Shown: piece by piece, positions 1 through 52,900 of the stretch
How positions within the stretch are numbered: the first letter of the stretch is position 1
How the letters are laid out: each line of letters opens with the position of its first letter
Source: Antedon mediterranea
Taxonomy: Eukaryota > Echinodermata > Crinoidea > Comatulida > Antedonidae
Assembly (NCBI RefSeq): GCF_964355755.1
Contig: NC_092676.1
Coordinates: 19,078,288 to 19,142,287, forward strand
Reading direction: 5' to 3'
Length of the DNA: 64,000 nt
Program-made: the position numbers and the translations under genes
The notes under the pieces: generated by a model
Seen by the model: only the letters and a program-made list of their open reading frames with translations
What the model was told of the DNA's origin: nothing
Database searches by the model: none

Positions 1-6269
<6,269 letters not shown>

Positions 6270-7559: not shown

Positions 7560-7718
7560 ATAAATTGGCATTAAATACCAAAATTAGAGGGACGGACACT
7601 TGGAGAGCGCAAACCTAAATATTCAAACAGCATTAAATACCAAAACTAGAAGAGCACTCAGAGAGCACAAACCTCTGCCTATAGGCACATAGGTTTCCAT
7701 ACAGCTATAAAACTATCC

Positions 7719-7929
7719 TTTACAATTTTATGAAATCGGACAATAACTTCTTGAGTAATCCTTACAATTTTATGAAATCGGACAATAACTTCTTGAGTAA
7801 TCCTTACAATTTTATGAAATCGGACAATAACTTCTTGAGTAATCCTTACAATTTTATGAAATCGGACAATAACTTCTTGAGTAATCCTTACAATTTTATG
7901 AAATCGGACAATAACTTCTTGAGTAATCC
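7719..7929. repeat. 42-bp minisatellite, 5 copies
   Basis: Five essentially identical units contain TTTTATGAAATCGGACAATA and CTTCTTGAGTAATCC. Because 42 is divisible by three and the unit lacks stops in some frames, both strands show apparent repetitive ORFs of 70-100 codons. These are by-products of the repeat. Confidence 0.95.
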
Positions 7930-9924
7930 TGCTAACTAAAACTATATAGAAAAAAACAAGCATATAAACACGCGTGATCAAGCACATAAACTCTGGCCGA
8001 GGTAATCATATGTTGAACTTGCATTTACTATTTAAATATTTCTATGGTGTTATAATATAACCAGAATAATTGATATTACTGTACGTCATTTCTGAACAAA
8101 CATACACACAGATGAGGTATAACATTAAGGGAGGTAATAAATTCATTCAGACATATTAACATTTATGTAAATAGACCATAGAGAATCATAGAACCTTTAT
8201 CTGCATATTAACCTAAAAGGAACTTTCCATAGAAGATTTCAGAATGATATGAAATTAATACAATGTACACATTTACATAACATTAACAATTATTATATAA
8301 TTGTAAACAGCACATTTGTATACAGTATATACAAAAAGATAAATTTTTATTTAATATTTACAATGATATCGGTTATGTTTAAAATAAAGTCATGTTTTAA
8401 TTTAGTCACAAAAAAATTCAAGTTGGCATGCTTTTGATGATACTGGCCACCTAAAAACAACCTACTTTACACAGGGAGTTGTAATTAACAACTCACTGCT
8501 TTACATAAACATAAATATCCCTCTAGGTCATGGTAAAAAGGTTACAATAAAATGCATATCTACAGGAGATCACACAAAATGCTATTAGTTTAATTTATCA
8601 TGACTAAAATAAAACACAACACATTTCATCATTCACCATTAAACCAAGTGGCTGGAATTATTATTTTACACCAATTAAATTCTTTATACACAAGCACCAC
8701 TTAAATAATTGTAATTGTAAAAAATATTAATACCAGTTTGCCTGCATAAAATTATTTATAATTCCTTTCTATGGATAAATATTTAGGAATATTTTTTATA
8801 GTTTTCGCATTCATATTTTTAATTGTAAAAAATTATTTACGAACATTTTATTTCACAAAAATATCTACCATTTGAATTATTTATCTATTACGCGACTATT
8901 GCGTTTTTACCTAAGAGAATGTACTAACTCAAGCATAGCCCCACTAAAGGTAAGATTTTTAAAATGTAGTGATCACATGATAGGCACCTTTAACCACTCT
9001 TAAATGATTACCTAACTATATATTACTGTATTATCTTACTTACATGCATCATTTAACAAGATGCAGTTCGATATTGATATGTTGCTCATTTGCATAATTT
9101 AATCGACTTTCACACTTTGTTTGGTCATGTTAAAACTTTATCAAGGAACGCTTCAATTATTTCTTGACGCAATATTTTTGACAGATTGTAAAATATTATA
9201 TCTAAAATAATAAATTGAAATCATTTTTCTATTTTGATGGAAATAAAATTGATGCAGTAGATATTTCAGTCCGTTTCCTTCCAGAGACACCATCATATCC
9301 TATCGCCATCATTCTTAATAATCATTTTTCTCTTCTTTGGTATCAATATTACAACACCCCCACCCCCCCCACAAATCACCTCATTTGTCAAGTAAAAAAT
9401 TTTAAAAACAAAAAATATTAAAAATGTGTATACTGGCCTCCAGATCATATTTTAATAATTATATGTTTGGTTTAAAATTGCATTGTCTCTTAATGCCCAT
9501 CTATAATAAATAATATACTTATTATTTTATATACACAGTTTTACATGACAAACATCTTTTGTTCCACGTAACAAAACAATATACTACTAACTCTTTTGTA
9601 TTGAACACAGAAAGGTATTGGATAATTCCTTACCTCCACCGAATGTTAGCATACCTACTGGTTTAAATACATGTAATATTACTTTTGTTTAAACAATTTC
9701 ATCAGCTGTCTGGTAATAATCTAGTTAGCACAACGGCAGCCATTATCAAAAAATAAATTATAAAAATACTACTGAGCAAAAACAGAGCAAATAAATACAT
9801 CTAAACTGTTTAGTTTAATTCAAATAAAAATATTTTATAAATAAATTGCATTTGAAAAAAAGTATTTGAATAAAAATAAAAATTACAGCTGCATAAAATA
9901 TTGAAATATGGACTAATAATAAGT

Positions 9925-34469: not shown

Positions 34470-37400
34470 TTATTCTTGCTTTAAATTAGCGTTTTTTGTA
34501 TTTTCTTGTGCTTTTTTGTTTCCGTTTACAACCGCGTCTACCATGTCTGATTTTGTGATCAACGTCCCTGAAAAACTAGCCATAAAATCAAGAATCGGAC
34601 TCGGTAGATGGTTAAACAGCCATGCGTAAACAGGTGCTAAGAAGCCGCAGGCATACCGCGTCTTCGGACGTCTGGCTAGAAGAGCATGGATTATAGTTTC
34701 CGACACTGGTGAAATATCGGTTTCCAGTCGGGAATCGTTTTCTGTGTAGAAACGACTAGACATGTTTTTGAAGTAATGGTCGCCGTAGATGGGACGTAAG
34801 TTAACTGGAAGTTGCTCTTGTAGTTCTTTAAGTGTTTTTTGCATCAAACCTGAAGTTGTGGCAGCTGAAAAAAAAAAAATACAGGAATAAACCATGGAGA
34901 AATTAGAATAAAATAAAATGTGTTCAGGTAGACAACTTAACTTCCTCAAAAAAGTTTTCTGCAGTTTTCCTTAGTTTATCAACTGGCCTACACAAACTTT
35001 GTACAATTTTTTCTTGCTTGAGTTTTCAATTAAATAACTGTCTGTTATTGATATTTCTTACCAGTTTTGAAACCACCTGGTTCTACTGCCGACACCTTTA
35101 TTCCCCATTTTGTCATTTCATTGCGTAGAACGTCTGTGAACATGTCCGCTGCGGCCTTTGAGGAGCAATAGGCCGAAAGACTTGGCATAAATAACAAAGC
35201 TGTATAAATAAATAGATTCATGTTGTTAATTTGTCTGACATGACAATATAACCATTCCATACTGCATAGACAATTTAGTAGAGAATTCTGCGGTGCTGAC
35301 TTCACGACGGTAGGTGACGCTGCGTGGACGGCATTGTTGTTGCTAGCTAACCAAAAAATGCGTTCAACCTGCTTGAGTGACTCAAAGGTCACCAATAATT
35401 TGGAATTGGCTTAGTCATTTTAAAACTTAATAATTTTCAATAAAAACAAACTAAAATTTCAAAAGATCACTAAATATTTGTTTTTAATCTATTTCTTCAA
35501 CTACAGTTTAGTTGAAGTTAAAAAAAATAAGTTAAAAAAAATCAATCTAAGATACATAATTTGATACAAATACAGATCTATATAGTTTATCAACATAGTA
35601 GCGTTGAACACATTTTTGGGTTGGCTAGCAACCATGCAGCGCCATCTATCGTTGTGACGTCACACTGCAGAACTCTATGTTGGTAAAATATTTAACCAGA
35701 GTGTTGAAACCTCTAATGCTGTGTCCCTGGCTCGAAATATTTTATTTACATTTTTTGTTTTCTGATAAAAAATATATATTTTAAAAATCCAAATGGTATT
35801 TTGAATCACTTTTTTTTCAACTCTACTCCAAAAGGTAGATAGTAACTTACCACATAAACTTGTGACGTTTACAATTCTACCTTTTGATTTTCGAAGAAGC
35901 GGAAGAAAGGCCTTCACCATCCGTACTTGCCCTAGAAAATTTACATTCCATAATTTTTGGAATACTTCTAATGAGCAGATCTCAGTCTCTGCCATTATGC
36001 ACTGTCCAGCATTGTTTACAAGACCCCAGAGTTCTAAAAGATAACAAAGATTTCATATTTATGATTATTATTACAATATAGTGCTTTATGATAGAAACAA
36101 ATAAGTTTAAGATTACGAAGTAAAGTTTACATTACTACTTAATGTTTGAACTTTACAAAATGACCTATGCCCCTTTTAAGGTTGACAATACATTCTATCA
36201 GCTCATACTCCATGATCAGCTGAAATTAGCCTGCTCTACCCATCTTTTATCATTGTTGTTGACATTATCCAGTGTTATTTAAGAAATCTGCATATATACC
36301 ATATATGATCAAGTATAGTCCCAGATAGACTACGAAGTAAAGTTTACATTACTACTTAATGTTAATTAATGTTAATTACTTAATGTTAATGACGTATGCC
36401 CCTTTTAAGATTAACAAAGTGATTGTTATATGAGATTGAGTTCTTACAAACTAAAATTCTGGTCTTATATTAATGTTGAGGCTCCCACTTCCAACCTAAA
36501 TTGCTGATCCCCATAACAAGGTTGGCTTCTCATCAACTAAATTTGTAGTCCCATCAATTAATATAGTCTTAGTACATAAAGCCTCTGATTTGAATACTTG
36601 ATGTCTAGGAACTTGTTTTACTAATACAAATTTTGACTTTTTATTTAGTAGAATAGTTTTTATAACAAAAATTTTTTAATTTTCCATAGTCACCTTTTTT
36701 AGAGAGTTGATGTTTAACAATGTCCAAAGCCTTTTTCACTTGGTCATCACTGGTGACGTCCAATTGCAGAGTGACCAGTCGATTCGAACAATTGGCTACA
36801 AGAGCTTGTTCACCATCGCCACCTTTCTTTAGACACCCAGCGAACACCCGGAAGCCGAGGGCATCCAGTTGTTTAGCCGTCTCATAGCCAAACCCACTAT
36901 CACATCCTAAGTAACAAAATTGTTAATAATTGTTACTGTATCAATCATCATGTCTGCACAAATGTATTCATTATTTTATAATTATGATTTATTATATGAT
37001 CATTTTCATTTCATTATAAAAAATGGCCTTAGGAATGTAATAATTGCCATATTCAAGTGAATTGGAAAACCTTATGATCTACAGAAAATATTAAAATGTT
37101 CAAAATGCTATGACTATGTTAAGCAATGAAATGATTATAATACAGTACTTTATTTTAATTAAATACTTAACTCAAATATGCCATACTGATAAATTATAAA
37201 ATACAGCTAAATAATTTTAGTTCTTTTATTAAAACTTAATAAATAAAAAGCTGGTATTACCTGTAATCAACACCGCTTTCTCTTCAACTGGAAGATATCC
37301 CTGAGGAAGATTATTAAAGATGTAATAGCAAGCAGTTGCAAAGACAATCAGGCCAAGTATGCCTCCCAAGATGAACTGGCTAAGAGGTTGGAGAACAGTA

Positions 37401-37567
37401 GGTAAGATGAGGAGCAAAATTGATGGGAAATTTAACTCTAGTTCATTACTTAGATAGCGAGATAAAGCCGCACCGCTAAACACTATCGTTATCGTCGAAT
37501 ACGATAATAGATATAAATGATACAAAGACATTATACTTAAAATATTAATAAGTTTTTCTACAAACAA
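34470..37567 (-). CDS. Membrane-anchored short-chain dehydrogenase, SDR9C type (BDH1/RDH-like)
   Basis: Five exons join in frame on the minus strand: 37567-37261, 36906-36694, 36033-35851, 35199-35062 and 34864-34470. They give 411 residues from the first Met, or 399 from codon 13. Residues about 45-85 hold hydrophobic segments (FPSILLLILPTVLQPL; ILGGILGLIVFATACYYIF), suggesting membrane anchoring ahead of the catalytic domain. The Rossmann motif is TGCDSGFG (102-109), the NNAG motif 180-183, the catalytic Ser232, and Tyr245-x3-Lys249 (YCSSK). The VEPGGFKT motif after strand 6 is typical of SDR9C. Family members oxidise or reduce retinoids, steroids or 3-hydroxybutyrate with NAD(H)/NADP(H). 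The closest look is to BDH1 (LWGLVNNAG, CDSGFG, VFAGCL), but the substrate cannot be read from sequence. It is transcribed away from the protease-inhibitor gene. Confidence 0.88.
36114..36363. repeat. Dispersed repeat copy 2 flanked by 33-bp direct repeats
   Basis: The block TACGAAGTAAAGTTTACATT ACTACTTAATGTT occurs at 36114-36146 and again at 36331-36363. It flanks a copy of the repeat also seen at 33865-33998. It lies in SDR intron 2. The direct repeats may be a local duplication linked to insertion. Confidence 0.65.
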
Positions 37568-37976: not shown

Positions 37977-40900
37977 ATGGCTAGATTAAATGCATTATTA
38001 ATCATTTTGTCATTACTTGTAGTAAGTATTACTTTATTATTAATATATAGTGATATATTCAAAATTGTTCATTTTATAATCAGATTGATAGTTTAATGAT
38101 TATTTAATAAATATTTTTGGAAATAGCTAGGCCTAACTAAATGATATTAATTTCTAGGCCAAAGTAGTTGTTGATTTCAGAAGTTGTTTCGCCAGAATTA
38201 TTTGCCACTAAGTCGTTTCGCCCCTATCTATTGCTTATAAATACATAAACTCACTTATGTTAAACAGAATCATCCATGAACCGGCGTGAAGTTGGTTACT
38301 TATTCCTTATTCGATATTCAATTTTTTTTGTGAAGTTGGATCCTTATTCGACATTCACATTCACATGTATGGGGCGCAATATGTGTAATATTTTAATTAA
38401 ATGATTTTATACTTACGGCTTAGATTTACTAGGGCTATGATTTATAGGGCTATAACTTCGTTATAAACAGCATGGACCGGGATGACGATACATGGGTTGG
38501 GGCTAGTAGGGTCCAGTCGTTTCAGAAAATACCACTTGCCCCGGTCCATGCCGTCTAGCTGTCATTTTACGCCATTTTAAAACCTTACTACAATTTAACG
38601 TTTTTTAAAATAAAAAATGCAATATAACCGGATGATTTATAGTGCTATAATTACGTGATAAACGGCATGGACCGAGATGACGATACATGGATTGGGGCGA
38701 GTAGGATCTAGTCATTTCAGAAAAATACCACTTGCCCCTGTCCATGCCGTCTAGCTGCCATTTTACGCCATTTTAAACGTTACCACAATTTAAGTTTTTT
38801 TTAATAAAAAATGCAATATAACCGTATGATTTATAGGGCTATAATTACGTTATAAACGGCATGGACCGGGATGACGATACATAGGTTGGGGCTAGTAGGG
38901 TCCTGTCGTTTCAGAAAAATACCACTTGCCCCGGTCCATGCCGTCTAGCTGCCATTTTACGCCATTTTAAAACGTTACTACAATTTAAGTTTTTTTTAAA
39001 TAAAAAATGTAATATAACCGGATGATATAATAGGGCTATAATTACGTTATAAACGGCATGGACCGGGATGACGATACATGGGTTGGGGCGAGTAGGGTCC
39101 AGTCATTTCAGAAAAATACCACTTGCCCCGGTCCATGCCGTCTAGCTATAATTTTACGCCATTTTAAAACGTTACCACAATTTAACGTTTAAAAAAAAAA
39201 ATGCAATATAACCGAATGATTTATAGGGCTATAATTACGTTATAAACGGCATGGACCGGGATGACCATACATGGGTTGGGGCTAGTAGGGTCCAGTCGTT
39301 TAAAAAAAATACCACTTGCCCCGGTCCATGCCGTCTAGCTGTCATTTTACGCCATTTTAAAACGTTACTACAATTTAACGTTTTTTTAAATAAAAAATGC
39401 AATATAACAGGATGATATATAGGGCTATAATTACGTTATAAACGGCATGGACCGGGATGACGATACATGGGTTGGGGCGAGTAGGGTCTAGTCATTTCAG
39501 AAAAATACCACTTGCCCCGGTCCATGCCGTCTAGCTGTAATTTTACGCCATTTTAAAACGTTGCCGGTACTACAATTCAATTTTTTTAAATAAAAAAATG
39601 CAATATAACCGAATGATTTATAGGGCTATAATTACGTTATAAACGGCATGGACCGGGATGACGATACATGGGTTGGGGCGAGTAGGGTCCAGTCATTTCA
39701 GAAAAATACCACTTGCCACGGTCCATGCCGTCTAGCTGTAATTTTACGCCATTTTAAAACGTTGCCGGTACTACAATTTAATTTTTTAAAATAAAAAATG
39801 CAATATAACCGAATGATTTATAGGGCTATAATTACGTTATAAACGGCATGGACCGGGATGACGATACATGGGTTGGGGCGAGTAGGGTCCAGTTATTTCA
39901 GAAAAATACCACTTGCCCGGTCCATGCCGTCTAGCTATCATTTTACGCCATTTTAAAACGTTACCACAATTTAACGTTTAAAAAAAAAAAATGCAATATA
40001 ACCGAATGATTTATAGGGGGCTATAATTACGTTATAAACGGCATGGACCGGGATGACGATACATGGGTTGAGGCGAGTAGGGTCCAGTCATTTCAGAAAA
40101 ATACCACTTGCCCCGGTCCAGGCCGTCTAGCTGTCATTTTACGCCATTTTAAAACGTTACTACAATTTAACGTTTTTTTAAATAAAAAATGCAATATAAC
40201 AGGATGATATATAGGGCTATAACTACGTTATAAACGGCATGGACCGGGATGACGATACATGGGTTGGGGCGAGTAGGGTCCAGTAATTTCAGAAAAATAC
40301 CACTTGCCCCGGTCCATGCCGTCTGGCTGTAATTTTACGCCATTTTAAAACGTTGCCGGTACTACAATTTAATTTTTTTAAATAAAAAATGCAATATAAC
40401 CGAATGATTTATAGGGCTATAATTACGTTATAAACGGCATGGACCGGGATGACGATACATGGGTTGGGGCTAGTAGGGTCCAGTAGTTTCAGAAAAATAC
40501 CACTTGCCCCGGTCCAGGCCGTCTAGCTGTCATTTTAGGCCATTTTAAAACGTTACTACAATTTAACGTTTTTTTTTTTATAAAAAATGCAATATAACCG
40601 AATGATTTATAGGGCTATAATTACGTTATAAACGGCATGGACCGGGATGACGATAAATGGGTTGGGGCAAGTAGGGTGCAGTCAATTCAGAAAATTACCA
40701 CTTGCCCCGGTCCATGCCGTCTAGCTATCATTTTACGCCATTTAAAACGTTACTACAATTTAACGTTTTTTTAAATAAAAAATGCAATATAACAGGATGA
40801 TATATAGGGCTATAATTACGTTATAAACGGCATGGACCGGGATGACGATACATGGGTTGGGGCGAGTAGGGTCCAGTCATTTCAGAAGATTTTCTCTTGC

Positions 40901-43900
40901 CCCGGTCCATGCCGTCTAGCTGTCATTTTACGCCATTTTAAAACGTTACTACAATTTAACGTTTTTAAAAATAAAAAATGCAATATAAATGCATGATTTA
41001 TAGGGCTATAATTACGTTATAAACGGCATGGACCGGGATGACGATACATGGGTTGGGGCGAGTAGGGTCCAGTCATTACAGAAACATACCACTTGTCCAG
41101 ATCCATGCCGTCTAGCTGCCATTTTACGCCATTTTAAAACGTTACTACAATTTACGTTTTTTTAAAATAAAAAATGTAATATAACCGGATGATATATAGG
41201 GCTATAATTACGTTATAAACGGCATGGACCGGGATGACGATACATGGGTTGAGGCGAGTAGGGTCCAGTCATTTCAGAAAAATACCACTTGCCCCGGTCC
41301 ATGTCGTCTAGCTGCCATTTTACGCCATTTTAAAATGTTACTATAATTTAAGTTTTTTTTTGTAAAAAATGCAATATAACCGGAAGATATATAGGGCTAT
41401 AGTTACGTTATAAACGGCATGGACCGGGATGACGATACATGGGTTGAGGCGAGTAGGGTCCAGTCGTTTCAGAAAAATACCACTTGCCCCGGTCCATGCC
41501 GTCTAGCTGGCATTTTACGCCATTTTAAAACGTTACTACAATTTAACGTTTTTTTAAATAAAAAATGCAATATAACAGGATGATATATAGGGCTATAATT
41601 ACGTTATAAACGGCATGGACCGGGATGACGATACATGGGTTGGGGCGAGTAGGCTCCAGTCATTTCAGAAAAATACCACTTGCCTCGGTCCATGCCGTCT
41701 AGCTGTCATTTTACGCCATTTTAAAACGTTACCGGTACTACAATTTAATTTTTTTAAATAAAAAATGCAATATAACCGAATGATTTATAGGGCGATAATT
41801 ACGTTATAAACGACATGGACCTTGGTGACGATACATGGGTTGGGGCTAGTATGGTCCAGTAGTTTCAGAAAAATACCACTTGACCCGGTCCATGCCGTCT
41901 AGCTGCCATTTCACGTCATTTTAAAACCTTACTACAATTTAACGTTTTTATAAAAAATGCAATATAACCGGATGATATAAGGCTATAATTACGTTATAAA
42001 CGGCATGGACCGGGATGACGATACATGGGTTGGGGCGAGTATGGTCCAGTCATTTCAGAAAATTTTCTCTTGCCCCGGTCCATGCCGTCTAGCTGTCATT
42101 TTACGCCATTTTAAAACGTTACTACAATTTAACGTTTTTAAAAATAAAAAATGCAATATAAATGCATGATTTATAGGGCTATAATTACGTTATAAACGAC
42201 ATGGACCGGGATGACGATACATGGGTTGGGGCGAGTAGGGTCCAGTCATTACAGAAACATACCACTTGTCCCGATCCATGCCGTCTAGCTGCCATTTTAC
42301 GCCATTTTAAAACGTTACTACAATTTACGTTTTTTTTTAAATAAAAAATGTAATATAACCGGATGATATATAGGGCTATAATTACGTTATAAACGGCATG
42401 GACCGGGATAAAGATACATGGGTTGAGGCGAGTAGGGTCCAGTCATTTCAGAAAAATACCACTTGCCCCGGTCCATGCCGTCTAGCTGCCATTTTACGCC
42501 ATTTTAAAATGTTACTACAATTTAAGTTTTTTTTTGTAAAAAATGCAATATAACCGGAAGATATATAGGGCTATAATTACGTTATAAACGGCATGGACCG
42601 GGATGACGAGACATGGGTTGGGGCTAGTAGGGTCCTGTCGTTTCAGAAAAATACCACTAGCCCCGGTCCATGCCGTCTAGCTGCCATTTTACGCCATTTT
42701 AAAACGTTACTACAATTTAAGATTTTTTTTAATGAAAATAGAATATAACCGGATGATATATAGGGCTATAATTACGTTATAAACGGCATGGACCGGGATG
42801 ACGATACATTGGTTGGGGCGAGTATGGTCCAGTCATTTCAGAAAAATACCACTTGCCCAGGTCCATGCCGTCTAGCTATCATTTAACGCCATTTTAAAAC
42901 GTTACTAAAATTTAACGTTTTTTTTATAAAAAATGCAATATAACCGAATGATTTATAGGGCTATAATTACGTTACAAACGGCATGGACCGAGATGACGAT
43001 ACATGGGTTGGGGCTAGTAGGGTCCAGTAGTTTCAGAAAAATACCACTTGCCCCGGTCCATGCCGTCTAGCTGTCATTTTACGACATTTTAAAACGTTAC
43101 TACAATTTAACGTTTTTTAAAATAAAAAATGCAAAATAACTGGATGATATATAGGGCTATAATTACGTTATAAACGGCATGGACCGGGATGACGATACAT
43201 GGGTTGGGGCGAGTAGGGTCCAGTCATTTCAGAAAATTTTCTCTTGCCCCGGTCCATGCCGTCTAGCTGTCATTTTACGCCATTTTAAAACGTTACTACA
43301 ATTTAACGTTTTTAAAAATAAAAAATGCAATATAAATGCATGATTTATAGGGCTATAATTACGTTATAAACGGCATGGACCGGGATGACGATACATGGGT
43401 TGGGGCGACTAGGGTCCAGTAATTACAGAAACATACCACTTGTCCCGATCCATGCCGTCTAGCTGCCATTTTACGCCATTTTAAAACGTTACTACAATTT
43501 ACGTTTTTTTTAAATAAAAAATGTAATATAACCGGATGATATATAGGGCTATAATTACGTTATAAACGGCATGGACCGGGATGACGATACATGGGTTGAG
43601 GCGAGTAGGGTCCAGTCATTTCAGAAAAATACCAGTTGCCCCGGTCCATGCCGTCTAGCTGCCATTTTACGCCATTTTAAAACGTTACTACAATTTAACG
43701 TTTTTTAAAATAAAAAATGCAATATAACAGGATGATATATAGGGCTATAATTACGTTATAAACGGCATGGACTGGGATGACGATACATGGGTTGGGGCGA
43801 GTAGGGTCCAGTCATTTCAGAAAATTATCTCTTGCCCCGGTCCATGCCGTCTAGCTGTCATTTTACGCCATTTTAAAACGTTACTACAATTTAACGTTTT

Positions 43901-46900
43901 TAAAAATAAAAAATGCAATATAAATGCATGATTTATAGGGCTATAATTACGTTATAAACGGCATGGACCGGGATGACGATACATGGGTTGGGGCTAGTAG
44001 GGTCCTGTCGTTTCAGAAAAATACCACTTGCCCCGGTCCATGCCGTCTAGCTGTCATTTTACGCAATTTTAAGACGTTACTACAATTTAACGTTTTTTAA
44101 AATAAAAAATGCAATATAACAGGATGATATATAGGGCTATAATTACGTTATAAACGGCATGGACCGGGATGACGATACATGGGTTGGGGCGAGTAGGGTC
44201 CAGTCATTGCATAAAAATACCACTTTTCCCGGTCCATGCCGTCTAGCTGTCATTTTACGCCATTTTAAAACGTTACCGGTACTACAATTTAATTTTTTTA
44301 AATAAAAAATGCAATATAACCGAATGATTTATAAGGCTATAATTACGTTATAAACGGCATGGACCGGGATGACGATACATGGGTTGGGGCTAGTAGGATC
44401 CAGTAGTTTCAGAAAAATACCACTTTACCCGGTCCATGCTGTCTAGCTGCCATTTCACGCCATTTTAAAACCTTACTACAATTTAACGTTTTTATAAAAA
44501 ATTCAATATAACCGGATGACATATAGGGCTATAATTACGTTATAAACGGCATGGACCGGGATGACGATACATGGGTTGGGACGAGTAGGGTCCAGTCATT
44601 TCAGAAAAATACCTCTTACCCCGGTCCATGCCGTCTAGCTGTCATTTTACGCCATTTTAAACGTTACTACAATTTAATTTTTTTTTAATATAAAAAATGC
44701 AATATAACCGGATGATATATAGGGCTATAATTACGTTATAAACGGCATGGACCGGGATGACGATACATGGGTTGGGGCTAGCAGGGTCCAGTCGTTTCAG
44801 AAAAATACCACTTGGCCCGGTCCATGCCGTCTAGCTGTCATTTTACGCCATTTTAAAACGTTACTACAATTTAACGATTTTTAAATTAAAAAATGCAATA
44901 AACACGTATGATTTATAGGGCTATAATTACGTTATAAACGGCATGGACAGGGATGACGATATATGGGTTGGGGCGAGTAGAGTCCAGTCATTTTGGAAAA
45001 ATACCATTTGCCCTGGTCCATGCCGTCTAGCTGTCATATTACGCCATTTAAAAACGTTACTACAATTTAACGTTTTTTTTAATAAAAAATGCAATATAAA
45101 TGGATGATTTATAGGGCTATAATTACGTTATAAATGGCATGGACCGGGATGACGACAAATGGGTTGGGGCTAGTAGGGTCCAGTCGTTTCAGAAAAATAC
45201 CACTTGCCCCGGTCCATGCCGTCTAGCTGCCATTTTACGACATTTTAAAACGTTACTACAATTTAACGTTTTTATAAAAAATGCAATATAAACGGATGAT
45301 ATATAGGGCTATAATTACGTTATAAACGGCATGGACCGGGATGACGATACATGGGTTGGGGCCAGTAGGGTCCAGTCATTATAAAAAAAGACCACTTGCC
45401 CCTGTCCATACCGTCTAGCTGCCATTTTACGCCATTTTAAAACGTTACTACAATTGAACTTTAAAAAAAAATGCAATATAAACGCATTATTTATAGGGCT
45501 ATAATTACGTTATAAACGGCATGGACCGGGATGACGATACGTGAGTAAAATGACTGGACCCTACTTGCCCCAATCAATGTATCGTCATCCCGGTCCATCC
45601 CGTTTATAACGTAATTTTAGCCCTATAAATCATGCGTTTATATTGCATTTTTTATTTAAAAAAAAGTTAAATTGTAGTAACATTTTAAAATGGCGTAAAA
45701 TGGCGGCTAGACGGCATAGACCGGGCAAGTGGTATGTTTATAAAATCACTGGACCATACTCGCCCCAACCTATGTATCGTCATCCCGGTCCATGCCGTTT
45801 ATAACGTAATTATAGCCCTATAAATCATGCGATTATATTGCATTTTTAAATTTAAAAATCGTTAAATTGTAGTAACGTTTTTGGTTTTAAAATGGCGTAA
45901 AATGACAGCTAGACGGCATGGACCGGGGCAATTGGTATTTTTCCGAAATTACTAGACCCTACTCGTCCAAACCCATGCATCGTCATCCCGGTCCATGCCG
46001 TTTATAACGTAATTATAGCCCTATAAATCATACGTTTATAGTGCATTTTTTATTTCTAAAAACGTTAAATTGTAGTAACGTTTTAAAATGGCGTAAAATG
46101 ACAGCTAGACGGCATAGACCGGGGCAAGTGGTACTTTTCTATAATGACTGGTCCCTACTCTCCCCAACCCATGTATCGTCATCCCGGTCCATGCCGTTTA
46201 TAACGTAATTATAGCCTTATATATCATCCGGTTATATTGCATTTTTTATAAAAACGTTAAATTGTAGTAAGGTTTTAAAATGGCGTGAAATGGCAGCTAG
46301 ACGGCATGGACCGGATCAAGTGGTATTTTTCTGAAACTAATGGACCCTACTAGCCCCAACCCATGTATCGTCATCCCGGTCCATGCCGTTTATAACGTAA
46401 TTATAGCCCTATACATCATACGTTTATATTGCATTTTGTATTTTAAAAAATTAAATTGTAGTACCGGTAATGTTTTAAAATGGCTTAAAATGACAGCTAG
46501 ACGGCATGGACCGGGGCAAGTGGTATTTTTCTGAAATGACTGGACCCTACTCGCCCCAACCCATGTATCGTCATCCCGGTCCATGCCGTTTATAACGTAA
46601 TTATAGCCCTGTATATCATCCTGTTATATTGCATTTTTTATTTAAAAAAACGTTAAATTATAGTAACGTTTTAAAATGGCGTAAAATGACAGCTAGACGG
46701 CATGGAACGGGGTAAGAGGTATTTTTCTTAAATGACTGGACCTTACTCGCCCCAACCCATGTATCGTCATCCCGGTCCATGCCGTTTATAACGTAATTAT
46801 AGCCCTATATTTCATCCGGTTATATTGCAATTTTTATTAAAACGTTAAATTGTATTAATGTTTTAAAATGGCTTAAAATGACAGCTAGACGGCATGGACC

Positions 46901-49900
46901 GGGGCAAGTGGTATTTTTATGAAATGACTGGACCCTACTCGCCCCAACCCATGTATCGTTATCCCGGTCCATGCCGTTTATAACGTAATTATAGCCCTAT
47001 AAATCATACGTTTACATTGCATTTTTTATGAAAACGTTAAATTGTAGTAACGTTTTAAAATGGCGTAAAATGACAGCTAGACGGCATGGACCGGGGTAAG
47101 AGTTATATTTCTGAAATGACTGGACCCTACTCGCCCCAACCCATGTATCGTCATCCCGGTCCATGCCGTTTATAACGTAATTATAGCCCTATAAATCATT
47201 CGGTTATATGGCATTTTTTATAAAAAAAACCCGTTAAATTGTAGTAACGTTTTAAAATGGCGTAAAATGATAGCTAGACGGCATGGACCAGGGCAAGTGG
47301 TATTTTTCTGAATTGACTGGACCCTACTTGCCCCAACCCATGTATCGTCATCCCGGTCCATGCCGTTTATAACGTAATTATAGCCCTATAAATCATACGT
47401 TTACATTGCATTTTTTATGAAAACCTTAAATTGTAGTAACGTTTTAAAATGGCGTAAAATGACAGCTAGACGGCATGGACCGGGGCAAGTGGTATTTTTC
47501 TGAAATGACTGGACCCTACTCGCCCCAACCCATGTATCGTCATCCCGGTCCATGCCGTTTATAACGTAATTATAGCCCTATATTTCATCCGGTTATATTG
47601 CATTTTTATAAAAACGTTAAATTGTAGTAAGGTTTTAAAATGGCGTAAAATGGCAGCTAGACGGACGGCCTGGACCGGGTCAAGTGGTATTTTTCTGAAA
47701 CTAATGGACCCTACTAGCCCCAACCCATGTATCGTCATCCCGGTCCATGCCGTTTATAACGTAATTATAGCCCTATAAATCATTCGGTTATATTGCATTT
47801 TGTATTTAAAAAAATTAAATTGTAGTACCGGTAACGTTTTAAAATGGCTTAAAATGACAGCTAGACGGCATGGACCGAGGCAAGTGGTATTTTTATGAAA
47901 TGACTGGACCCTACTCGCCCCAACCCATGTATCGTTATCCCGGTCCATGCCGTTTATAACGTAATTATAGCCCTATACATCATACGTTTACATTGCATTT
48001 TTTCTGAAAACCTTAAATTGTAGTAACGTTTTAAAATGGCGTAAAATGACAGCTAGATGGCATGGACCGGGGTAAGAGGTATATTTCTGAAATGACTGGA
48101 CCCTACTCGCCCCAACCCATGTATCGTCATCCCGGTCCATGCCGTTTATAATGTAATTATAGCCCTATATATCATCCGGTTATATTGCATTTTTTATAAA
48201 AACGTTAAATTTTAGTAAGGTTTTAAAATGGCGTGAAATGGCAGCTAGACGGCATGGACCGGGGCAAGTGGTATATTTCTGAAATGACTGGACCATACTA
48301 GCCCCAACCCATGTATCGTCATCCCGGTCCATGCCGTTTATAACGTAATTATAGCCCTATAAATCATTCGGTTATATTGCATTTTTTATTAAAAAAACCG
48401 TTAAATTGTAGTAACGTTTTAAAATGGCGTAAAATGATAGCTAGACGGCATAAACCGGGGCAAGTGGTATTTTTCTGAATTGACTGGACCCTACTTGCCC
48501 CAACCCATGTATCGTCATCCCGGTCCATGCCGTTTATAACGTAATTATAGCCCTATAAATCATACGTTTACATTGCATTTTTTATGAAAACCTTAAATTG
48601 TAGTAACGTTTTAAAATGGCGTAAAATGACAGCTAGACGGCATGGACCGGGGTAAGAGGTATTTTTCTTAAATGACTGGACCTTTCTCGCCCCAACCCAT
48701 GTATCGTCATCCCGGTCTATGCCGTTTATAACGTAATTATAGCCCTATATTTCATCCGGTTATATTGCATTTTTTATAAAAACGTTAAATTGTAGTAAGG
48801 TTTTAAAATGGCGTGAAATGGCAGCTAGACGGCCTGGACCGGGTCAAGTGGTATTTTTCTGAAACTACTGGACCCTACTAGCCCCAACCCATGTATCGTC
48901 ATCCCGGTCCATGCCGTTTATAACGTAATTATAGCCCTATAAATCATTCGGTTATATTGCATTTTGTATTTTAAAAAATTAAATTGTAGTACCGGTAACG
49001 TTTTAAAATGGCTTAAAATGACAGCTAGACGGCATGGACCGGGGCAAGTGGTATTTTTCTGAAATGACTGGACCCTACTCGCCCCAACCCATGTATCGTT
49101 ATCCCGGTCCATGCCGTTTATAACGTAATTATAGCCCTATACATCATACGTTTACATTGCATTTTTTATGAAAACCTTAAATTGTAGTAACGTTTTAAAA
49201 TGGCGTAAAATGACAGCTAGACGGCATGGACCGGGGTAAGAGGTATATTTCTGAAATGACTGGACCCTACTCGCCCCAACCCATGTATCGTCATCCCGGT
49301 CCATGCCGTTTATAACGTAATTATAGCCCTATATATCATCCGGTTATATTGCATTTTTTATAAAAACATTGAATTGTAGTAAGGTTTTAAAATGGCGTGA
49401 AATGGCAGCTAGACGGCATGGACCGGGGCAAGTGGTATTTTTCTGAAATGACTGGACCCTACTCGCCCCAACCCATGTATCGTCATCCCGGTCCATGCCG
49501 TTTATAACGTAATTATAGCCCTATAAATCATTCGGTTATATTGCATTTTGTATTTTAAAAAATTAAATTGTAGTACCGGTAACGTTTTAAAATGGCTTAA
49601 AATGACAGCTAGACGGCATGGACCGGGGCAAGTGGTATTTTTCTGAAATGACTGGACCCTACTCGCCCCAACCCATGTATCGTTATCCCGGTCCATGCCG
49701 TTTATAACGTAATTATAGCCCTATACATCATACGTTTACATTGCATTTTTTATGAAAACCTTAAATTGTAGTAACGTTTTAAAATGGCGTAAAATGACAG
49801 CTAGACGGCATGGACCGGGGTAAGAGGTATATTTCTGAAATGACTGGACCCTACTCGCCCCAACCCATGTATCGTCATCCCGGTCCATGCCGTTTATAAC

Positions 49901-52900
49901 GTAATTATAGCCCTATATATCATCCGGTTATATTGCATTTTTTATAAAAACGTTGAATTGTAGTAAGGTTTTAAAATGGCGTGAAATGGCAGCTAGACGG
50001 CATGGACCGGGGCAAGTGGTATTTTTCTGAAATGACTGGACCCTACTCGCCCCAACCCATGTATCGTCATCCCGGTCCATGCCGTTTATAACGTAATTAT
50101 AGCCCTATATATCATCCTGTTATATTGCATTTTTTATTTAAAAAAACATTAAATTGTAGTAACGTTTTAAACTGGCGTAAAATGATAGCTAGACGGCATG
50201 GACCGGGGCAAGTGGTATTTTTCTGAATTGACTGGACTCTACTTGCCCCAACCCATGTATCGTCATCCCGGTCCATGCCGTTTATAACGAAGTTATAGCC
50301 CTATAAATCATAGCCCTAGTTAATCTAAGCCGTAAGTATAAAATCATTTAAATAAAATATTACACATATTGCGCCCCATACATGTGAATGTGAATGTCGA
50401 ATAAGGATCCAACTTCACAAAAAAAATTGAATATCGAATAAGGAATAAGTAACCAACTTCACGCCGGTCATCCATGAGTGTGTTGCTATATAATTTGTAT
50501 TTCCTATTTCTTGGGCTTATAATTTTTTTCAGACTGTAGAATGTTACAGAAATCGTGAAATTCAAATTGGTATGTCTTTTTTTTTCGTTTTTTTTCAGTT
50601 GCAGCATTTTTCACTTTTTATTCTGCGCTACTGGAGGAAATAATCAATAAATTTATTTATTTCCTCCTTGCGTTCCTCGTAACAAAAAAGAGGCATTGCA
50701 CATCTTTACATTTATACATATGTGTATAAATATAGCGCCCTCTATATAATGTGTTGTATATTTTTATTGTTATACTACCCTCTATATAAACTTTACATCT
50801 CTTTATTTACTTCATATCCTATACAATGAGGAAAACAATTTTTATTAATAAAATAATAATTATTATTATTTTTCAGTGAGTAAGGAAGGACGTTGTCCAG
50901 ATGTGTCGGATGGTCAAGTTGGCATCTGCGCTATTACATGTGACAATGATCTGAGCTGTGACAATGAAAGGAAATGCTGTGGGAATGGTTGTGGAGGTTA
51001 TGACTGTATGCAACCTATTGAAGGTTACAATAAAATTAGTTTTTTTTAAAGATGAATCAGTGCATGCATGTAATTGTGTTATGAGGAAAATATCTTCCAC
51101 CCACTCAGACCCAAAAGCTTATTTATGATTTTCCAGCCATCATAATTGCACCATCCATTCCAAGAAACCTCTAGGTAGCTGAAAATATTGTTTTATTTTG
51201 TTTATCTCATTACATCTCTCTGTCTGTGTGTAACATGAAAATTGTTATTACATAGCACTAACATAGTACAGTAGAACCTTTATTTCACGTATGGTACGGG
51301 ACCGAAAGGCGTACGTAAAGCACGGGATTCGTAAAACACAGGTTCTACTGTACTGTACTGTACTGTACTTGTTTAAATCCTTCTGATCCCCAATTGAGCT
51401 TGGGCAGCTGTACTTTTACTGTATGTCCACTGTTTTATTTCATAGTACCCTATTCCGCTTTATTTTTCCTTTTTACAAAATATAAATTTGCCAATTTTAT
51501 AGTACTTGCTTTGTTTGTTTGTTAGCATGATAGCGCCCACAATTGTCAAGTTATTCTGAATTTTTCGGTGTAAATAGCTATTTACTTACAGAACATGCCT
51601 ATTGAAATTCATTAATAACTTTAAGCAAAATTTGTATTTTTTCAACATGAAATATTAACATTCTGTGGCAATATTATTACATTTTCAACTCATTTTACAC
51701 TTATTATTGAAGATTCTGCAATATAAAATAATGAAACAGTTTGGTCTGATAAAGTCCCAAAAATTCTCCTTTTGACTGCCGGAATAACCACAAAAAGCTC
51801 TATCTGGCCCTTTGTCTAAAAAAGTTGTGGACACATAACATAAGGAGTTTAGTCAATAGTTTTACTGCATATTTTCATTGTCATTTATTTGATTAATTCT
51901 CAGAGAGAATGTGTCATATTCCTTGCCCAAGGATATATGAACCTGTGTGTGGTTCGGATGGCCAGACGTACAGTAGTGAATGCATGCTAAACTTCACAAC
52001 ATGTTCACGCAATCAGGAGTTTGTACACAGGGTGCATGATGGTACATGCCAAGAAAGGGATTTGAACCGAGGAAGTGAAGCCCTCCTGCGTAAGTAGATT
52101 GGATTTTAATGTTATTCCTACGTACTTTACACTTAAATACAAATGCTTACCGTATTTATTCGAGGGAGGAGTGTATTCGGGAGCAGCATTTATTTCTTTG
52201 GGTGTTATATGGTAGCATGTATTATAATCAAATAAATAAATATGAAAAAATACAACACATTTAATATTGAAAAGTGAAAAAATGCAGTAAAAATTGTATC
52301 AAAATTATTGGTAAATTGTAGATCATGAATTCTACTACAAATAGAAATGTGTGGTAATACAGTATTGTGTATATATGCATGTAGTGGGGTGTTTATTCGA
52401 GAAATAAATAAAGGCCAAGAGCGTTTATTCGAGGAGGCATTTATTCCAACTGATATTCTATGGGGGGGGGGGGCGTTTATTCAAAATGATGTTCTATGGG
52501 GGAGGGGGGGGGGCGGCATTTATTCAAAATGATGTTCTATGGGGGGCGTTTATTCATGCTGTTTAAAACTTTTGCAGGTGGTACATGTGAAAGTAGAAGA
52601 AAGGAAGCTGAGAAAAAGCCAATGATTGGAGCACAGGTACCACAGTGTGACAGTGATGGTAATTATGAAGCAATGCAATGCTGGGGGTCTGTTGGTAAAT
52701 ATTAATACATAATATGGTTTCTTTATATTTATAACATTTTTACCAGAACACAAATTCTGAGATATATATATATATATATCAGTGTACCATGTCCCGCATA
52801 CCTGGCTCAATGTTTTATGCCAGTTCTGCGGTACATTTCATTTTGAAACCTGAGCTGTACTGACGAGATCTAATAAGATCGAAACAATACTGTCTGCAGA

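Follow-up and report, generated by a model that had tools for sequence, protein, structure and literature searches.

The usual view is that satellite arrays form where they lie and that transposons contribute, at most, their first monomers. The window, a stretch of 64,000 nucleotides of the Antedon mediterranea genome, contains a palindrome of tandem repeats that the first-pass annotation described as a satellite packaged as a mobile unit. This locus raises the question of whether entire satellite arrays can be carried by a transposon and, if so, what moves them and how they change in size.

Layout of the palindromic element

The element lies on G000:C7 near 19.12 Mb, measures 12,189 bp (38280-50468) and has exact boundaries (Table 1). 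As the first-pass annotation had claimed, its ends are exact inverted copies, flanked by a perfect 9-bp duplication: the two ends show no difference over their outer 116 bp, and the ~280 bp that follow differ at scattered positions only. Analysis with TRF identified 36.3 copies of a 196-bp unit in the left array and 24.4 copies of a 192-bp unit in the right array, while an HMM scan counted 37 monomers on the + strand and 25 on the - strand, in agreement with the announced ~37 and ~25 units of ~195 bp. The head-to-head arrangement was also recovered, with an abrupt orientation switch at ~45540-45548 and no foreign spacer at the switch point.

Table 1. Features of the palindromic element (positions in the window)
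Feature	Position	Strand
Target-site duplication, left copy, 9 bp, CATCCATGA	38271..38279	
Left terminal domain, ~157 bp, non-satellite, starts ACCGGCGTGAAGTTGGTTACTTATTCC	38280..38436	+
Left arm, ~37 head-to-tail monomers of ~196 bp (right limit 45540)	38437..45540	+
Head-to-head junction GATACGTGAGTAAAATGACTGG, common to this element and four other copies, in both orientations	45536..45557	+
Right arm, ~25 monomers of ~192-196 bp, orientation opposite to the left arm	45548..50311	-
Right terminal domain, inverted relative to the left one and the same as it over the first 116 bp	50312..50468	-
Target-site duplication, right copy, 9 bp, CATCCATGA	50469..50477	

No coding frame was found in the element, the longest stop-free frame spanning at most 89 codons. 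The monomer carries an inverted repeat of ~15 bp and, compared with shuffled sequence, shows better folding (z -3.6); a search of Rfam gave no match at a curated threshold. Once joined, the flanks of the element form a single-copy sequence meeting at the duplication, and a genome search with these joined flanks matched their own locus only, with no empty paralogue of the site.

Elsewhere in the window, an exon of a short-chain dehydrogenase gene was identified at 35045-35395 on the - strand (Pfam adh_short match). From the reading of frames, positions 37229-37567 (-) look like the first coding exon of this gene, which would place the element ~0.7 kb upstream of it. Two very regular minisatellites were also detected by TRF at 5269-5779 (56 bp x 9.1, 98% matches) and 7715-7930 (42 bp x 5.1, 99% matches).

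Two families of dispersed copies and a proposed founder palindrome

The searched genome comprises 354 Mb in 18 contigs, and all counts obtained from these searches are lower bounds. With the terminal 162 bp as query, 42 places were found, 22 of which form 11 +/- pairs spaced by 12.0-24.4 kb, corresponding to the window copy and 10 more complete copies (family 1). Perfect 9-bp duplications, mutually different in sequence, flank 10 of these 11 pairs (the window copy and nine others), and the 11th shows a 9-bp duplication with two mismatches. A chance structure is excluded, since ten further paired copies exist and since, at the window copy, single-copy flanks meet at the duplication. The terminal domain is present at 22 of the 22 ends with a mean identity of 98.8%, and the two ends of one copy are no more alike than the ends of different copies, which suggests a recent burst of family 1.

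In the six fully read copies, the left and right arms contain 9/69, 36/59, 51/39, 43/79, 34/68, and 36/24 near-complete monomers. Each of these copies has one orientation change and no more, and the greater length of the longer copies corresponds to more monomers. No gene or middle domain was found in any copy, six being read fully and the others sampled at spots, and satellite was present at 33 of the 34 spot samples inside the remaining copies of both families. The exception, at C7:30287000-30287299 (L092), is a non-satellite sequence within a family-1 copy, possibly a nested insertion.

Family-1 sequence also occurs at other loci. A degraded copy at C10:11434841-11439962 (L044) has two + ends, 2.8 kb apart and with nearly the same upstream flank, one - end, few monomers and no matching duplication; a similar stretch found at L044:4868-5029 and in L047 could encode KNVTVDNVHGFVNILKNKIEKFIIISLVGCPRSRLGSDVDLGSIII, with no Pfam match. 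On C6 (10673500-10678500, L048), about 15 monomers of the family-1 satellite in one orientation (~3 kb) lie between unrelated flanks, and the terminal domain is absent on either side. This block suggests that these elements may leave free satellite behind or may have been fed by it, much as reported for Tetris.

With one end of a more distant match as query, 8 further pairs with a spacing of 7.8-20.4 kb were revealed, referred to as family 2. The terminal-sequence search suggested in the first-pass annotation gave a strongly positive outcome, and this second family appeared in addition to the further copies of the first. The ends of family 2 are related to those of family 1; shifted outward by one base from the position initially taken, they read AGCGCCGTGAAGTTGG. 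With this boundary, perfect 9-bp duplications were read from the flanks of 7 of the 8 copies. The family-2 satellite differs from that of family 1, with a period of ~186 bp and a 371-bp dimer, and the two consensus units have in common only a 45-bp core of 82% identity. Two family-2 copies display a common junction, in opposite orientation.

Allowing up to 3 mismatches, a 29-bp core of the ends was counted 61 times genome-wide versus none for the reversed control, and a looser 21-bp pattern 182 times versus 3 for the control. Short inverted pairs among these matches, such as C8:22622787-22623453, look like MITE-sized relatives. The surrounding interval (C8:22622650-22625650, L066) contains, at about 134-810, an element of ~0.67 kb with inverted repeats, the related end CGTGAAGTTGGTTACTAGTTCC, and internal repeats. 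A candidate third satellite at C4:12969 was rejected as an unrelated high-copy repeat, and three core sites of chromosome 3 (L068, L069, and L072) look, from the reading of frames, like a segmental duplication with host-like genes.

The copy at C4:3.18 Mb has the window copy's junction unchanged, and those at C5:10.0, C8:16.2, and C11:21.9 have its reverse complement; a pattern search recovered these five copies and no others. Both orientations are expected, because two alike ends let the element insert either way. Beside the junction, homologous arms of the window, C8, and C5a copies are ~97-99% identical monomer by monomer over 7-8 units, compared with ~91-92% for non-homologous arms. Between C8 and C5a, the 12 monomers nearest the end are alike at 98.9%, about equal to the divergence of the ends. 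The + arms of the window and C4a copies do not match beside their common junction (~92%), which we read as later reshuffling, and other junctions are found in the copies C1, C5b, and C10:19.1. The simplest account of the common junction and the orthologous monomers would be a founder palindrome multiplied whole by transposition, and the presence of both in different insertions supports the view that the satellite is packaged in mobile form. Overall monomer identity is ~92-93% within as well as between elements; the array would therefore have been long and diversified before the burst.

Head-to-tail duplicated blocks within an arm reach 30 monomers (~5.9 kb) with ~99.5% identity, as expected of unequal exchange or slippage. 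Blocks of 14-16 monomers, also with ~99.5% identity, are common to the opposite arms of one copy. These would need inverted exchange or conversion, for which the foldback would provide the opportunity. In these comparisons, one match was kept per place, since the inverted repeat of the unit otherwise matches both strands.

Candidate transposase and rival explanations

None of the copies read encodes a protein, so that a transposase would have to be supplied in trans. The duplication, constant at 9 bp, speaks for Mutator, the superfamily argued for Tetris (PMC4079207) and reported for Tm1 (PMC3169594), and falls within the 8-11 bp range of MULE target duplications (PMC6446971). The transposase is thus probably of the Mutator (MULE) superfamily, judging from the duplication length and from the MULE-domain genes of the genome; as MULEs, the elements pass the duplication test only. 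The full-length relative with a transposase that the first-pass annotation had proposed to look for did not appear in genome searches with PF10551 and PF12762, which were incomplete and gave no transposase gene adjoining any element end: none of the 36 MULE-domain (PF10551) matches lies beside a matching end, and none of the 11 Merlin-type (IS1595; PF12762) matches beside an end. One MULE group is represented at five genome places by the same match in a 651-aa open frame (including C5:1625300-1629300, L113), which suggests recent activity of this group; similar ends were absent from the one MULE copy inspected. A C4 end located 20 kb from a MULE match was inspected and looks unrelated. The locus L070 (C2:20075250) is probably not an autonomous partner: it has a MADF exon, followed by frames that read as gypsy-like.

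Assembly is difficult for both long palindromes and satellites, and the elements are known here from assembled sequence; inverted or chimeric long reads could have created false palindromes from a satellite array. We nevertheless regard such an artefact as very improbable. A fold-back read would yield mirror-image arms, whereas the observed arms are unequal and built from different monomers; one junction recurs at five loci in both orientations, and the 19 loci lie in unique surroundings, each with two conserved ends, 17 of them with perfect 9-bp duplications. Target-site duplications at independent loci also contradict the idea of an ordinary satellite array inverted in place and bordered by chance by similar sequences, to which we give practically no credence. 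The interior is indeed satellite and the C6 block without terminal domain does exist, but the same ends, head-to-head layout, and 9-bp duplication are found at many loci, and the single-copy flanks of the window copy meet at its duplication.

A non-Mutator enzyme (P-like, Merlin or undescribed) moving elements whose foldback form is convergent is a rather unlikely but serious candidate. Merlin-type transposase genes are present in the genome, Merlin duplications are 8-9 bp long, and no autonomous copy was found in the genome searches. However, the Merlin matches are few and none adjoins an end with CGTGAAGTTGGTTACTTATTCC-type sequence, and exactly 9 bp in 17 copies fits MULEs best. The foldback form does arise in the P superfamily, as Galileo shows, but Galileo duplications are described as 7 bp (PMC3573991).

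The reading we favor, and hold to be highly probable, is that of a non-autonomous foldback DNA transposon, of which a founder palindrome was multiplied with its arrays inside by a transposase that is probably a MULE. The enzyme, supplied in trans, would recognize the ~157-bp terminal domain at each end, and a 9-bp staggered cut at insertion would generate the target-site duplication. The interior between the ends consists of two opposed arrays of one satellite and nothing else. During multiplication by transposition with the arrays inside, or between transpositions, blocks of many monomers would be gained or lost, making the arms grow and shrink, and sequence would be copied between the two arms, able to pair as a foldback. 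The elements may be active at present.

Structurally, these elements resemble foldback elements: their terminal inverted repeats are long and contain tandem repeats in variable number, and the copies are discrete, dispersed and bordered by target-site duplications (perfect at 10/11 and 7/8 copies in the two families). A classical satellite is a head-to-tail array without defined ends, whereas here the ends are defined and each fully read copy contains one reversal. Helitron-type elements make no target duplication, and Helitrons and Helentrons lack long inverted ends; the 9-bp duplications and inverted ends observed here do not fit this type.

Comparison with known elements and significance

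The FB elements of Drosophila melanogaster have long inverted repeats containing tandem repeats and 9-bp duplications; their repeat units are short, the elements are smaller, and some copies carry the NOF gene. The crinoid elements are alike in their inverted repeats with tandem units and in the 9 bp, and differ by their ~195-bp units and by the absence of any gene in the copies read or sampled. Sea urchin TU elements, set beside the crinoid elements by description only, have tandem units of ~15 bp and 8-bp duplications.

Tetris of D. virilis is non-autonomous, with inverted repeats formed of an outer domain and ~220-bp tandem repeats, and 8-10-bp duplications from whose length Mutator was suggested; its repeats also occur as free satellite-like arrays (PMC4079207). 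All these structural traits (non-autonomy, outer domain and tandem repeats in inverted repeats, free arrays) are shared with the crinoid elements, but Tetris has terminal repeats of up to 1,735 bp, 3-4 units in described copies, and a middle domain (PMC4079207), whereas the crinoid elements harbor 9-79 units per arm in 12-24 kb, lack a middle domain, and have whole arrays in common between insertions. Galileo, similarly foldback-like, contains ~210-bp tandem repeats in group F inverted repeats, with a repeat number that differs between the arms of one copy, as it does here; it belongs to the P superfamily, with 7-bp duplications, at most 3 tandem units, and terminal repeats of up to ~1.26 kb (PMC3573991). 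Tm1, a Mutator/Foldback element of root-knot nematodes, also has composite inverted repeats with variable tandem units, mostly 9-bp duplications, and a predominance of non-autonomous copies, but its units are of ~14 bp, 1-9 per arm, in elements of 0.17-2.5 kb, and a transposase-encoding copy is known (PMC3169594).

Rehavkus, compared by description only, shares 9-bp duplications, inverted ends and a minisatellite within the element, and is distinguished by a PHD-finger transposase, terminal repeats of 26-400 bp, and its reported occurrence in arthropods and annelids (PMC6446971). In the Pacific oyster, a non-autonomous mobile element likewise carries satellite-like arrays; these Helentrons are Helitron-type, and opposed arms are not described in the accessible part of the source (PMC7492417).

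By analogy, the crinoid elements would work like FB, Tetris, Galileo, and Tm1. Their kind is already known from these four; within the open-access literature, what is new is the 9-79 repeats per arm, versus 1-9 there. The arms of the crinoid elements exceed those of Tetris, Galileo, and Tm1 several-fold to many-fold in length, and a middle domain is absent. The first-pass annotation knew of no described element of this size and composition, which holds within the open-access literature searched, with Tetris as a smaller foldback-satellite precedent (PMC4079207).

More speculatively, and with doubts of our own, we can envisage a lineage of self-enlarging palindromic satellite transposons, whose ends would stay conserved while the satellite diverges and whose arms would copy each other as a foldback around transposition. 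If so, a self-enlarging element would reach 10-25 kb without any gene, and transposition would be both the birthplace and the dispersal route of satellite DNA.

Under the favored reading, whole arrays of tens to more than 100 satellite units would have reached several chromosomes en bloc, junction included, and the passage from founder to resized descendants can be traced monomer by monomer. Satellite spread, array growth, and the survival of long palindromes thereby become testable in one natural system.
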